From Hellea sp. (lineage in GTDB: Bacteria > Pseudomonadota > Alphaproteobacteria > Caulobacterales > Maricaulaceae): DNA of 64,000 bases. Positions 1,551 through 28,112 of this stretch are shown here, in pieces. The translations under genes were made by a program, and so were the position numbers. The stretch's first letter is position 1, and each line of letters opens with the position of its first letter. Location: contig JABABK010000014.1 of NCBI GenBank assembly GCA_014238285.1, positions 1-64,000 of the forward strand, read 5' to 3'. Under the pieces are notes generated by a model, which was not told the origin of the DNA, ran no database searches, and saw nothing but the letters and a program-made list of their open reading frames with translations.

Positions 1551-4067
1551 CTAGAAGTTCTTGCGAGCCGTCAAACCATACATACGCGGCTGTTGCACAA
1601 ATGTAGAGCGAGATCCGGAACGCAGGACCGTATTAAAGGTAACCGCGCGCGTGACTTCATTCGTGATATTGGTCGCCCAAGCTTCCAGCATCCAACCATC
1701 ATCTTGATCTCCGAAACCAGCGCGAAGGTTTAGCTTGGTATTGCTTTCTTGAATATCAAACGGGTTAAGCGCTTGCGTCGCGAGAACTACGGCTTGCGTC
1801 GATGTCCGGCGGTCGCTTTCATAGCGCATCTGGGCATTAAGGAACATTTTATAGTTATTCCCGACATCCGCAGCATATGTCGCGCCGGCAATGCCAACAG
1901 CCTTAGGTGCATTGGTCAATGAATTACCACAAAGCGATGTCACATTAATAGCCGTTTGATCGCCAGCGCAATCATCAGGATATTCGGCATCTAAAAGCGT
2001 TAAGCCACCGTTTAACGATAATGTATCTGTAACATTAGCTACGCCTTCGAGTTCGATACCTGTGGTCTCGGCCTTAGGGACGTTAAAGGTCACAAATTGA
2101 GCCCCGGTAAATTCGAGAACTTGGAAGTTTGAAAACTCCTCGTGGAATGCGGCCACATTAAATGTCACTCGGCCATCAGCAAGTTTCGTTTTCAAGCCAA
2201 GCTCGTAAGCATCGACTTCTTCCGAAGCAAAACTAGGATCACTACCACCAATGGCAGCCGTAGAATCTAGATTGAAACCACCTGACTTATAACCGTGTGT
2301 AAAGCTGGCATAGGTAGACGCACTTGGCCCAAGATTATAGGATATTTTACCAGTATAAATCAGCTCTTCATCTTCAAACTTTTCATTAAAAGAAACGGGC
2401 GTTGGCCAGAAATCCGGATCCGTTGTTGGAAGAAGACCCGTCGGTAGATCCGCAGGTGCCGTGAATGCAAAACAACCTGTCCCAAACAAATTTGGTGCAA
2501 ATAAAGCAGGGACAGTACCTGCGAGAATACCATCAACAATATTTGTACATAGCGGATTATTGACATCAGTCTGGTTAAATCCGCCCGTTTTACTTTCATC
2601 AGAATAGCGAAGTCCAACCGTCAGGCTTAGATCATCAGAGAAGTCATACACATTATGTGTAAAGAGCGAAAAGCTCTTACTATCTTGCGTATAATTATTA
2701 GTTGCTCGCGTAACAGATGGATCCACGCCGCCCCCAAATACCGATAATAGATTAGTCCCAAAAGCCAGACCATTCCCCGTAAGCCCCTCAATTGTATTAT
2801 AGAAAAGACCTGTAATTAACTCACCATAGTCCTCACCCAGGCCAAAGTTAGTCGTCTGAGCAATATCTTCATCAGAATAGTAAGCACCAACAAGCCAATC
2901 AAGTTTGCCGTCCATGGCATCACCTTGAACACGAAGTTCGTGGGTCATCGTATTAATACTGGTATTACTACCGTCCAAAACATTGAAAACATCGATCCCT
3001 GAGAAATCAGAATCATATTGTTCCGAGGCGTCATATTCACGGTAAGATCCGATATAAATCACATCAGCATTATCAGATACTGGTATCTTAATTTCACCCG
3101 TTATACCGATTTGGTCATTACTTGGATTTGGTACTTGATCACTAGAGGCATGGAGGCTCGCCGCCGCGCGTTCCGCTGTTGTGTTATCAGTTGGGTCAAG
3201 CGCAACAATCGGACCAGACATACCCCCGCGAGCACCAAGTCCTACATTGAAAAAAGACTGATCTGTTTCGAGAGGCGATTGCAGAACTTCGATCGCGGCG
3301 CAACATTCAGCCGTACTTTTGGAATAATCTACAACAATACGGCCCTCGATACCGCTATCACCTTCATAACCGAGTTGCGCCCGGATCATGTGCTGATCAA
3401 TACCGTTTGATTCGCCAAGCTTATTGCCTGCACTATCGTGAATATCCACATAACCATCACGTTTGCGAATGGCGCCCGTCAATCGAGCCGCCATGTTATC
3501 AGAAATCGGAAGGTTTACTGCGCCTTGCAAATTCATATGATCGTGATTGCCATAAGTCGCATTAACGAACCCACCTGTTTCGCCAATCACAGGCTTAACA
3601 TTGGTGACATTCAAAGCACCCGCTGATGTATTACGTCCAAATAGTGTGCCTTGTGGGCCGCGCAATACTTCAACTCGCTCAACATCGACAAATTCGCCGA
3701 GAGCAACACCGGGACGAGACTGATAAGCGCCATCAATAAAGACACCAACAGCTGATTCAAAACCGATATTATTGGATGTCGTACCAACACCGCGAATTCT
3801 TAGAACCACGGTTCCAGATGATGTTTGAGCGTTTGACGATGAAAAACTTGGCGCAACAGATGATAGGTTTTGTATATTAACAATACCTTGTTTCTCTAGC
3901 TGCTCTGGCTGAATAGCCGTAACGGCGATTGGAACGTCTTGGATGTTTTCCGCCCGGCGCGTCGCCGTCACAATAACTTCGTCTTCGAATACCTGGGCGA
4001 TCGCTATATCAGAAGCTGCGAGCGCCATCATTGAGACGGCGGTTAAGTATCGATTAAGTTTAGTCAT
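1551..4067 (-). CDS. TonB-dependent outer-membrane receptor
   Basis: The 838-residue protein has a signal peptide (about residues 1-24, ending AIAQ) and then a TonB box, DEVIVTATR, near residue 29. A plug domain follows at about 40-150 with typical text such as RVEVLRGPQGTLFGRNTSAG. The rest is a long beta-barrel ending in phenylalanine, as expected for BAM-dependent insertion. It imports a scarce substrate using TonB/ExbBD energy. No neighbour reveals the ligand and no Fur-type site was recognised, so siderophore, sugar or other substrates remain open. AAGGGGA sits ahead of the ATG. Confidence 0.93.
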   Translation of the reverse strand: MTKLNRYLTAVSMMALAASDIAIAQVFEDEVIVTATRRAENIQDVPIAVTAIQPEQLEKQGIVNIQNLSSVAPSFSSSNAQTSSGTVVLRIRGVGTTSNNIGFESAVGVFIDGAYQSRPGVALGEFVDVERVEVLRGPQGTLFGRNTSAGALNVTNVKPVIGETGGFVNATYGNHDHMNLQGAVNLPISDNMAARLTGAIRKRDGYVDIHDSAGNKLGESNGIDQHMIRAQLGYEGDSGIEGRIVVDYSKSTAECCAAIEVLQSPLETDQSFFNVGLGARGGMSGPIVALDPTDNTTAERAAASLHASSDQVPNPSNDQIGITGEIKIPVSDNADVIYIGSYREYDASEQYDSDFSGIDVFNVLDGSNTSINTMTHELRVQGDAMDGKLDWLVGAYYSDEDIAQTTNFGLGEDYGELITGLFYNTIEGLTGNGLAFGTNLLSVFGGGVDPSVTRATNNYTQDSKSFSLFTHNVYDFSDDLSLTVGLRYSDESKTGGFNQTDVNNPLCTNIVDGILAGTVPALFAPNLFGTGCFAFTAPADLPTGLLPTTDPDFWPTPVSFNEKFEDEELIYTGKISYNLGPSASTYASFTHGYKSGGFNLDSTAAIGGSDPSFASEEVDAYELGLKTKLADGRVTFNVAAFHEEFSNFQVLEFTGAQFVTFNVPKAETTGIELEGVANVTDTLSLNGGLTLLDAEYPDDCAGDQTAINVTSLCGNSLTNAPKAVGIAGATYAADVGNNYKMFLNAQMRYESDRRTSTQAVVLATQALNPFDIQESNTKLNLRAGFGDQDDGWMLEAWATNITNEVTRAVTFNTVLRSGSRSTFVQQPRMYGLTARKNF

Positions 4068-25065: not shown

Positions 25066-26625
25066 TCAACGCTTATCTTTCACATCAATCGAAAAGGTCT
25101 CTTTTGATTCAGCTGGCACTTTAAACTTATAAGTCGGGATAATCTCTCCAGGCTTGCGATCATGACTTTCATTTCCAATCATATCATAGCGAATGGTTTC
25201 GCTTTGAATGGTGATCTCAACGGTTATCTCTTGAGGCGTAGCATTGTAAACATCCGCCTTAAATCGACGTTTTCCTTTAAGTTCCTCTGTCTCTATTCTC
25301 GGAAATATAGAAACCGCAGCACTTTCAGCAATCTTGACTTCAACCGGTAGATCAATCGCCAAATCCCTTAGAGTGTCTTCACCCAAGAACGCCGTCCGTC
25401 CGTCAGCGATGTCAGTCATAACCCGCATAATTCCGCGAGGTAATGGCTGCCCAAGATTACCATCTTTACTGTTATCAAGCTCATATTCCACGCGAGTTCT
25501 AAATGGCTGCCTCAAGGTAGAATTTCGATTTACATATTCCGAAAAATCATACTTGAATACTTTTTCAAACTCCACATTCGGCACCGATAGGAAAGCAATT
25601 TGTTTGGTTTGATGGGCTGCAACCATGACATCTTGCGGAGCGCGGTAAAGCTTATAATCCCCAAGGTCTTCTTGCTTTGCTTTGCGTTTAGACGCCGTGA
25701 CTACAATTTCATCCGATTCAGTGCGCATCATCATAGCAGGTGCTGGAGCCATCAACCCGTTCGAATATCCAGCAAAACCATCAAACCTCCCATCTTCATT
25801 TCGATTTTGGGAGACAGAAAAATCATATCCCGTTTTCCAGCACGTTGGAGAAAAACTCACATTAAAATTTTGCAGAGCAAATTCATTTTGCGAAACGCGG
25901 TTAAGTTCTCCTGCGACCACTGAAAGCCCTGTATCTTTAAAGGATTTGGATGTTGAGTTTGTTAAGGTCAACCAGCCCAATAGGCCTGCTTCACCCATTT
26001 GTTCTGGGCCAACATCCAATCGATAGTCTGCTGCCCAGCCAATGCCGCGGCTCAAATATGATAGAGAAATTTCTTTTTCACCTGCAATATCGGCGCGGAC
26101 ATCCATTGATAATACAGGCATTGGATTGAGAGCCTCTGGCATAGCGTTAAAAACTAGGCTTTCAAAAAGGCCTGAACACTCTAGGCCCTCCACACCATCA
26201 GACGTTTCAAACACGGCGCCTTGTACATGGTTATTCAGGCGTGATGCTGAAACCAGCTTAGCAGCTACATTAGTCACATCACCATCGCCGGCATTGATCC
26301 GGCGGATGCTAATGGTTTCGCCTACAGCTTTGTTCAGCAGCGACCCTTTTGAAATTAAGTCTCCGTCAAAATTGCTCTCAAGACTTATACCCTCAAAAGA
26401 CTGTAATATCGCGGTCTGAGCAATGATTTGATCACTCACCCCCAGAAACCGAATAGTAGACAGACCTGCTGGTACATTAATCCGGCGCACCTCTGTAATC
26501 ATAGCTAAGTCATTTGGATAAATCGTCAGGTAAGTTTTTTCGACTTTAGTGGAATCAACCTTTTCCTGCGCGCTGACATTCAGCGCAGAAAACAAAACAA
26601 TAATGGCGGCAAGGAGCGCGCGCAT
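25066..26625 (-). CDS. DUF4139 protein with an internal TonB-box-like motif
   Basis: The 519-residue protein has a cleavable signal (ending VSAQ near residue 19). Its body is recognisable as DUF4139: YLSRGIGWAADYRLDV, LLGWLTLTNSTSKSFKD and LGQPLPRGIMRVMTD are family-type segments. DEIVVTASK at 305-313 is identical in style to a TonB box, and it lies in a low-complexity linker just before LGDYKLYRAPQDV. DUF4139 proteins are predicted beta-rich periplasmic or surface proteins without a known role. It starts 5 bases after its paralogue, so the two form one transcript. Confidence 0.82.
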   Translation of the reverse strand: MRALLAAIIVLFSALNVSAQEKVDSTKVEKTYLTIYPNDLAMITEVRRINVPAGLSTIRFLGVSDQIIAQTAILQSFEGISLESNFDGDLISKGSLLNKAVGETISIRRINAGDGDVTNVAAKLVSASRLNNHVQGAVFETSDGVEGLECSGLFESLVFNAMPEALNPMPVLSMDVRADIAGEKEISLSYLSRGIGWAADYRLDVGPEQMGEAGLLGWLTLTNSTSKSFKDTGLSVVAGELNRVSQNEFALQNFNVSFSPTCWKTGYDFSVSQNRNEDGRFDGFAGYSNGLMAPAPAMMMRTESDEIVVTASKRKAKQEDLGDYKLYRAPQDVMVAAHQTKQIAFLSVPNVEFEKVFKYDFSEYVNRNSTLRQPFRTRVEYELDNSKDGNLGQPLPRGIMRVMTDIADGRTAFLGEDTLRDLAIDLPVEVKIAESAAVSIFPRIETEELKGKRRFKADVYNATPQEITVEITIQSETIRYDMIGNESHDRKPGEIIPTYKFKVPAESKETFSIDVKDKR

Positions 26626-26630
26626 AGCGA

Positions 26631-28112
26631 TTACCAGGGACAGGTTTCGCGGACTTTAAAGTCCAGCGTCGTTTCATCCTCAGAAGGCACATTCACCCCC
26701 CATGTCCGAGTCGAGTCATTTTTCTCAGTACCGTCCAGACTCTCAGCTAGAACTTTATAATCACACCAATAGGCGCGTGGTAATGATTGGAAAACATGAA
26801 CCGTGGCAGCTTTTTTACTGGCATTACGGACCTCATAAGTCATGTCAAAGTCCCTGACACGTTTACTAATATTTTCACTTTTACGCAGGGTTGGCTTAAC
26901 GGTGATATCAAACGCTTCACCAATTTTAATCGAGATGTCAGATCCGCCAGCAATGTGGCCGATTGCATCTTCGCCTATGAATTGCGCTTTGCCCCTTTTA
27001 TCTTCCATATAAACTCGGACTGTACCGGCTGGTAGCGCCTCGCCCATACCGCCAGCTTTACTGTTAGAAAATGCGATGCGACTATCAACGTTGAGCGGAT
27101 TATTTTGACTATTGAAGCCCCAATTATAAAGCTCGTAGACTTTTTCGGCTTTGACACCGTCAGCATCGATAAAACTGATCTGCTTTTTCTGTTTACTGGC
27201 AAGGGTTGTAAGGCCGGGTAGAGGATACAAATAGTTATCGCCAATACGTTCTGCCGTTCCAGCTTCGATTCCGCCGCCGCGCTGCCCTTTATTGACACTT
27301 CTGTTCCGGTTGCGAAGGTAATTACGGGACTCATTCCAAAACTGATAATATTGGGTGTTATATTGAGAACCATAATATTGCTGACTGTCTTTGCCGATAT
27401 AACCTGCAACAACGGATAGCTTTGCATCATGGAATGACGTGCTAGTTTTATTGTCTATCGTCGCCCAACCTTGCAGGCCCATACGTTTGTCGCCTTCATT
27501 AAATACCGCGACATAGTCAGCATCCCAGCTAAGTCCGCTACTCAGATAGGTCATATTGGCGTCCCTGTTGCCCGGCAGGCGGCTATTGACCCTTAAGGAT
27601 AAGGTCGGGCTAGCCCTCAAATTTTCTGGCACTTTAGGAAAGACAACCCGTGTCGGGATATTGTCATCGCGCAGGACTTCGATCCGGTCACCAACTTGAA
27701 TGACGACGCCATTATTAACCGACAGAACTTTGGCGCGCTCGACGGTCTCTTTACCTGTTGCCGGATTAGTTTTGACGATATCAACGGTTTGACCCACGGC
27801 CTTTTCCATGAGCTTGGCGGGCGTCAAAAGATCAAAATCAAAATTTTGCTCGATGATTTCCATACCTGAAGCAATAACGGTTACACTTTGCGGCAGAATT
27901 GCAGAAGAGACACCCGGTAATTCGATCACTTGCTCCCCCCCTTTAAAACTAAGCCGCCGATTATCTTCGATGAGCGCTCTGCCATCGCCGTAAATTGTTA
28001 ACGCTAGGTTTTCTGATTGATCGACATCAGTGGCCAAGGGATCAGACGACTGCCCTGCAGCCGTGCACCCAAGTAGAGCTAAAATTGAAATGGATAATAG
28101 ATAGCGCTTCAT
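26631..28112 (-). CDS. DUF4139 lipoprotein, paralogue of the next gene
   Basis: The 493-residue protein has a lipoprotein signal (lipobox LLGC, cysteine at residue 16). YLSSGLSWDADYVAVF, LQGWATIDNKTSTSFHD and MGEALPAGTVRVYMED align with matching segments of the downstream paralogue, as does the ending of charged beta strands. It is therefore a tandem duplicate, but anchored by lipid rather than released. A CtrA-type box and a 10-bp-stem hairpin lie 36-65 bases upstream. Function unknown. Confidence 0.82.
   Translation of the reverse strand: MKRYLLSISILALLGCTAAGQSSDPLATDVDQSENLALTIYGDGRALIEDNRRLSFKGGEQVIELPGVSSAILPQSVTVIASGMEIIEQNFDFDLLTPAKLMEKAVGQTVDIVKTNPATGKETVERAKVLSVNNGVVIQVGDRIEVLRDDNIPTRVVFPKVPENLRASPTLSLRVNSRLPGNRDANMTYLSSGLSWDADYVAVFNEGDKRMGLQGWATIDNKTSTSFHDAKLSVVAGYIGKDSQQYYGSQYNTQYYQFWNESRNYLRNRNRSVNKGQRGGGIEAGTAERIGDNYLYPLPGLTTLASKQKKQISFIDADGVKAEKVYELYNWGFNSQNNPLNVDSRIAFSNSKAGGMGEALPAGTVRVYMEDKRGKAQFIGEDAIGHIAGGSDISIKIGEAFDITVKPTLRKSENISKRVRDFDMTYEVRNASKKAATVHVFQSLPRAYWCDYKVLAESLDGTEKNDSTRTWGVNVPSEDETTLDFKVRETCPW

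Follow-up and report, generated by a model that had tools for sequence, protein, structure and literature searches.

A conserved receptor-like TonB-box motif in a predicted disordered loop of a non-receptor DUF4139-like envelope protein

The window analysed here is a 64,000-nucleotide stretch of a Hellea sp. genome (contig JABABK010000014.1, positions 1 to 64,000 of the forward strand). Two adjacent genes on its minus strand, separated by 5 nt, encode DUF4139-type paralogues, here called protein 1 and protein 2 in their order of reading. A linker in the middle of protein 2 contains a peptide resembling the TonB box of TonB-dependent receptors (TBDRs), and the window also contains a genuine receptor that can be used for comparison. 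The features are:

25066..26625, minus strand: protein 2, a secreted MuiA/DUF4139-like protein of 519 aa with a TonB-box-like linker (ORF; paralogue of protein 1)
25687..25713, minus strand: TonB-box-like motif DEIVVTASK, residues 305-313 of protein 2 (sequence, conservation and own-genome TBDR profile)
25699..25833, minus strand: predicted disordered linker, residues 265-309 of protein 2, pLDDT < 50 (AlphaFold2 model)
26631..28112, minus strand: protein 1, a DUF4139 paralogue of 493 aa without the box (ORF; Pfam)
28065..28076, minus strand: lipobox LLGC, residues 13-16 of protein 1 (sequence)
1551..4067, minus strand: genuine TonB-dependent receptor with N-terminus FEDEVIVTATRRAENIQDVPIAVTAIQ (Plug PF07715 at G000:C55:3615-3944; motif L168)

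The N-terminus of protein 1 reads MKRYLLSISILALLGC followed by TAAG and contains a lipobox, while protein 2 starts with the SecI-type signal MRALLAAIIVLFSALNVSAQ. An earlier note on this DNA had described both the lipobox of the first paralogue and a DEIVVTASK peptide at residues 305-313 of the second, and we were able to verify both features in the reading frames. Protein 1 matches DUF4139 (PF13598) with 41.1 bits (E = 2e-10), above the Pfam cut-off of 31.8, and protein 2 matches it with 17 bits (E = 0.005), below that cut-off. A direct comparison of the two proteins (E = 2.5e-35, 35% identity) identifies them as clear paralogues. In NCBIfam, the MuiA family TIGR02231 gives protein 1 a score of 19.6 bits, which is under its curated cut-off of 112.6, and has no match in protein 2. 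The locus is shared with Hellea MAGs (Caulobacterales, Robiginitomaculaceae), which are the nearest named relatives that carry it. Several relatives (e.g. L004-L008 and L010) have a C-terminal extension of about 150 aa that is missing from protein 2 of the window. Two cysteines of protein 2, C150 and C262, are invariant in 32 orthologues; one of them lies at the start of the linker, and they could form a disulfide.

The paralogue pair is one conserved unit that occurs in essentially every intact locus. In 106 of the 110 loci with enough flanking sequence, the gene directly upstream of protein 2 encodes protein 1; the four exceptions are a truncated locus or second protein 2 copies within 1-2-2 triplets. 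The earlier note, which described a lipobox in the first paralogue, suggested that the pair may form an envelope system. The pairing is supported, whereas a general role for the lipid anchor is not: a simple regular expression finds a lipobox in about 5 of 74 protein 1 orthologues, which rules out a lipid-anchored partner as a defining property. Only the pair is constant, and neither TonB/ExbBD nor any other neighbour genes are common across lineages. Triplets occur in G003 (L041/L136) and G087 (L116); the first protein 2 copy of the G003 triplet has no box and the tandem second copy (L019) has one. In the G020 MAG, paralogue 1 is split by stops or a frameshift (L031/L049), which may reflect a pseudogene or an assembly error.

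Of 398 genomes of the order, 70 have matches to the protein 2 family. In a class-wide sample, the five genomes outside the order that encode protein 2 have 17-48 Plug matches each, and 17 of 21 genomes with paralogue 1 only have five or fewer. The source genome itself has 27 Plug and six TonB_C matches. Four genomes of family f44 are rich in TBDRs and contain paralogue 1 without protein 2. Protein 2 thus tends to go with TBDR-rich genomes, an association that is only suggestive because the genomes are related to one another.

Conservation of the motif was examined in orthologues from several sources: 61 relatives, 37 named contigs, and larger sets of 398 genomes from the order and 385 from the class. 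A single-protein query against the genome contigs returned no match, and an alignment query retrieved the family. The resulting set contains 60 non-redundant orthologues with a delimitable linker from Caulobacterales and Sphingomonadales. The linker is the least alignable part of protein 2, ranging from Asn/Ser-rich to Pro-rich and varying greatly in length and composition. The earlier note had named conservation across orthologues as a check on the motif, and within these unalignable linkers the strict core [IVM][IVM]VT[GA] is kept in 43 of 60 (shuffled linkers: mean 0.09 per 60, maximum 2) and a looser pattern in 48 of 60 (shuffled mean 1.0). The strict core is confined to the linker in the 60 protein 2 orthologues and is absent from all 54 non-redundant paralogue 1 proteins. 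In the alignment, D305 (72%), V309 (81%) and T310 (69%) form an island among columns that are mostly below 35%. There are 57 distinct 15-nt versions of the core in 66 motifs, so the conservation is at the peptide level. The full box pattern is present in 61 of 93 protein 2 sequences, against three of 349 other ORFs with a length of 250 aa or more from the window and its related loci. By reading, all three of these background ORFs have TBDR-like N-termini, and one is the receptor at 1551-4067. The box is found in both deep halves of the protein 2 tree. It has no recognisable counterpart in a few orthologues (L007, L009, L008, L015, L119 and L127) and is therefore not essential everywhere; some rows labelled box-less on the tree carry variants that the pattern misses (LVITA in L116 and EIIVTGSGGKR in L051).

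The linkers also resemble receptor N-termini beyond the core. The TBDR N-termini of the source genome read DEIIVTATKR or DEIVVTG.R, and a profile built only from 19 of them scores the linker of the window's protein 2 at 19.8 bits (best of 12,000 shuffled linkers, 12.0). With this profile, 21 of the 60 linkers beat the best of 12,000 shuffles and 37 beat the 0.1% level. A 44-residue segment of the L053 linker has 52% identity to annotated TBDRs (E = 8e-5), and L053 aligns over 52 columns to a receptor of its own genome. Masking the box in L053 leaves a score of 15.9 bits, compared with 10.7 for the best masked shuffle. Five other linkers (L116, L132, L133, L017 and L267, a Sphingobium plasmid copy) contain the TonB box and a following stretch of the 'Q.VP.AVTA' type. 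The pieces borrowed by L065 and L125 come from inside the plug rather than from the box; the L065 linker contains the last part of a plug, with a Plug match (E = 3.7e-4) that falls just short of the Pfam cut-off, and tblastn gives no plasmid matches to either linker. Extended TBDR pieces account for seven state changes on the tree and differ between species. These longer, apparently TBDR-derived segments strengthen the likeness of the linker to a receptor N-terminus.

Structure prediction places the motif in an accessible position. In the AlphaFold2 model of the window's protein 2, the box is at the C-terminal end of a low-confidence loop inside the DUF4139 domain. A Brevundimonas orthologue gives a second, diverse model that shares the confident beta-rich core and the low-confidence loop ending in the box. 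Burial of the motif in the fold, which the earlier note had considered, is thus not predicted in either model, and the loop is predicted to be disordered. Pfam finds neither a Plug domain (PF07715) nor a 22-stranded outer-membrane barrel in the 519 aa of protein 2, and the strands of the model form a DUF4139-type core around the loop. Fold comparisons are less informative. A Foldseek search of the model returned nothing usable, with oligosaccharyltransferase chains as the top matches (TM about 0.1), and a VIA fold search gave single domains only with Z of at most 8.5. No beta-propeller is among these structural matches to the protein 2 model, although a missing match is not proof. For protein 1, a sequence search against solved structures yielded nothing significant.

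A motif search of the source genome finds the box in three further non-receptor proteins (L172, L175 and L192). The first is a YfbK-type VWA protein (G000:C80:66746-68719, minus strand; PF12450, PF00092 and PF12034) with a TonB box and a plug-like N-terminal linker. The looser box pattern is present in 14 of 21 linkers of YfbK orthologues (L223-L252; shuffled mean 0.6, maximum 3) and never in their folded part. In genome G038, a 54-aa query from the YfbK linker (L251/L274) matches a TBDR of the same genome (L279) with 79% identity over 53 residues (E = 5e-24), and the match covers the N-terminus and the start of the plug of the receptor. The YfbK protein of a second genome has a version that is 63% identical to this query. 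L192 is a small secreted protein with no family assigned (G000:C146:24012-24773, minus strand), and its relatives in the same order (L257-L264) keep the box right after the signal peptide. L175 is a large TPR/DUF2135 protein (G000:C83:20438-22966, plus strand) with a mid-protein DQIIVTGSRR box, for which one relative was found. Judged from sequence, receptor signal segments in envelope proteins that are not receptors are a recurrent theme in this order.

A TonB box binds the C-terminal domain of TonB as an added beta-strand (PMC11658791, PMC6118199). The soluble protein TolB is bound by TolA in the same manner through its disordered N-terminus, and TolA is proposed to detach it from Pal by pulling (PMC7066135, PMC8928145). 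The affinities reported for TonB-TBDR and TolA-TolB complexes are 40-250 uM (PMC7066135). Because protein 2 has an export signal, a predicted disordered and exposed segment, a box of its own genome's type and a constant partner, it could be a soluble client of TonB, which would pull or hold its loop. TonB binding by protein 2 is plausible on this basis. The fuller proposal, in which TonB binds the box of a soluble periplasmic protein 2 by beta-strand augmentation and pulls on this client to change its association with a partner, seems to us about evenly balanced between right and wrong. If it is correct, then protein 2 would be soluble in the periplasm, as its signal peptide suggests, and the disordered loop within its beta-rich DUF4139-type core would display a functional TonB box. 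The C-terminal domain of TonB would add to this box as it does to those of TBDRs and as TolA does to TolB, and the proton-motive force would pull protein 2 through TonB. The pull could alter how protein 2 associates with protein 1 or a different envelope component. The loop itself would be refreshed repeatedly by TBDR signal or plug segments, of which only the TonB-box core would be consistently retained. Several observations weigh against a TonB client: some orthologues have no box, the TBDR-rich f44 genomes have no protein 2, L065 and L125 have plug-interior pieces, and no neighbouring genes link the pair to TonB.

The client proposal competes mainly with two other readings, in which protein 2 is a TonB decoy or regulator, or its motif is recognised by a factor other than TonB. 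In the latter case, a chaperone, protease or assembly factor of the periplasm that also acts on TBDR N-termini might read the motif, with the segments being kept as a tag. The plug-interior segments of L065, L125 and the YfbK protein L251 would fit such a factor, since they exceed what TonB binding needs, but it is precisely the TonB box core that is retained with the greatest consistency. We know of no factor shared by TBDR N-termini and these segments, and we consider this explanation fairly unlikely. A decoy or regulatory role, in which protein 2 would bind TonB and limit or meter how the many receptors use it but would not be pulled, is also unlikely. The same sequence facts, the abundance of TBDRs in protein 2 genomes and the presence of the box in several unrelated envelope proteins are all compatible with a decoy, which would nevertheless have no need for a conserved paralogue partner or a conserved folded core.

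The two remaining explanations assign no function to the motif. If the linker were a tolerant insertion site where fragments of abundant TBDR genes land by recombination and persist, then extended TBDR pieces would be expected to arise repeatedly and differ between species, as they do, in linkers as variable in length and composition as these. Neutral capture of receptor fragments accounts for the extended pieces and not for the retained core, which is present in most linkers with diverse codons, is found in both deep halves of the tree and never appears in paralogue 1. As a complete explanation it is improbable. Chance likeness in a low-complexity linker is far less probable still. The motif is short and the linkers are rich in hydrophobic residues, yet the frequency of the strict core in shuffled linkers and the 21 linkers that outscore every shuffle by the TBDR profile exclude chance at the sequence level. 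A chance or low-complexity origin is ruled out by the shuffles together with the paralogue and background ORF controls.

The standard view of TonB is that it energises import across the outer membrane. In the literature that we searched, TonB boxes are described only for receptors and imported colicins, and no open-licence article was found that connects the TonB box with VWA proteins or with other proteins of the cell that are not receptors. No functional account of DUF4139 or MuiA was found in the open-licence literature either, where DUF4139 appears only in irrelevant contexts; both absences are weak evidence. The new observation, confirmed in sequences and models, is that conserved, receptor-like TonB boxes, predicted to be exposed, are present in an envelope protein that is not a receptor, and that at least one unrelated family has such boxes too. 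The retention of the box while the loop around it changes suggests a role for TonB beyond the driving of nutrient receptors. More tentatively, and with slightly less confidence than we place in the client role of protein 2 itself, we propose that Alphaproteobacteria rich in TBDRs possess a class of TonB clients that are the cell's own proteins and not receptors. This class would include protein 2, the YfbK/VWA proteins and at least the small secreted L192 family, with some boxes copied from receptors, and its members would be worked by TonB as TolB is by TolA, so that the Ton motor serves envelope functions beyond uptake. If true, the conservation of boxes in envelope proteins that belong to the cell and are not receptors would broaden the tasks of the Ton motor, in parallel to Tol-Pal, and would provide a first functional handle on DUF4139. 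Inner-membrane VWA proteins with a fold likened to YfbK have been described as TonB/TolA-like force transducers (PMC12204202), which is a different claim about the same pathway.

Several known systems share part of this arrangement. The box of protein 2, DEIVVTASKR, is of the same type as those of the genome's TBDRs (Plug PF07715 plus barrel), and some orthologues also carry the start or end of a plug; unlike a TBDR, protein 2 has neither plug domain nor barrel, and its box is in the middle of the protein rather than just after the signal peptide. Both paralogues share the domain of the DUF4139/MuiA family (PF13598, TIGR02231), and orthologues have weak DUF4140 similarity at the N-terminus; no box was found in paralogue 1. 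Group B colicins such as colicin M are also non-receptor proteins with a TonB box (PMC11658791), but they are imported toxins, whereas protein 2 belongs to a conserved chromosomal pair of the cell and has no toxin domain that we could find. TolB of the Tol-Pal system is, like protein 2 as proposed here, soluble in the periplasm and has a short disordered segment for pairing with the C-terminal domain of a TonB/TolA-type transducer (PMC7066135, PMC8928145). This analogy is incomplete because protein 1 is usually not a lipoprotein; in addition, the partner is a paralogue, the segment of protein 2 is internal and no beta-propeller is seen. The YfbK-type VWA proteins of the order differ in having an unrelated folded domain and a box in the N-terminal linker, but they share with protein 2 a TBDR-like box and plug segments within a Pro-rich linker.
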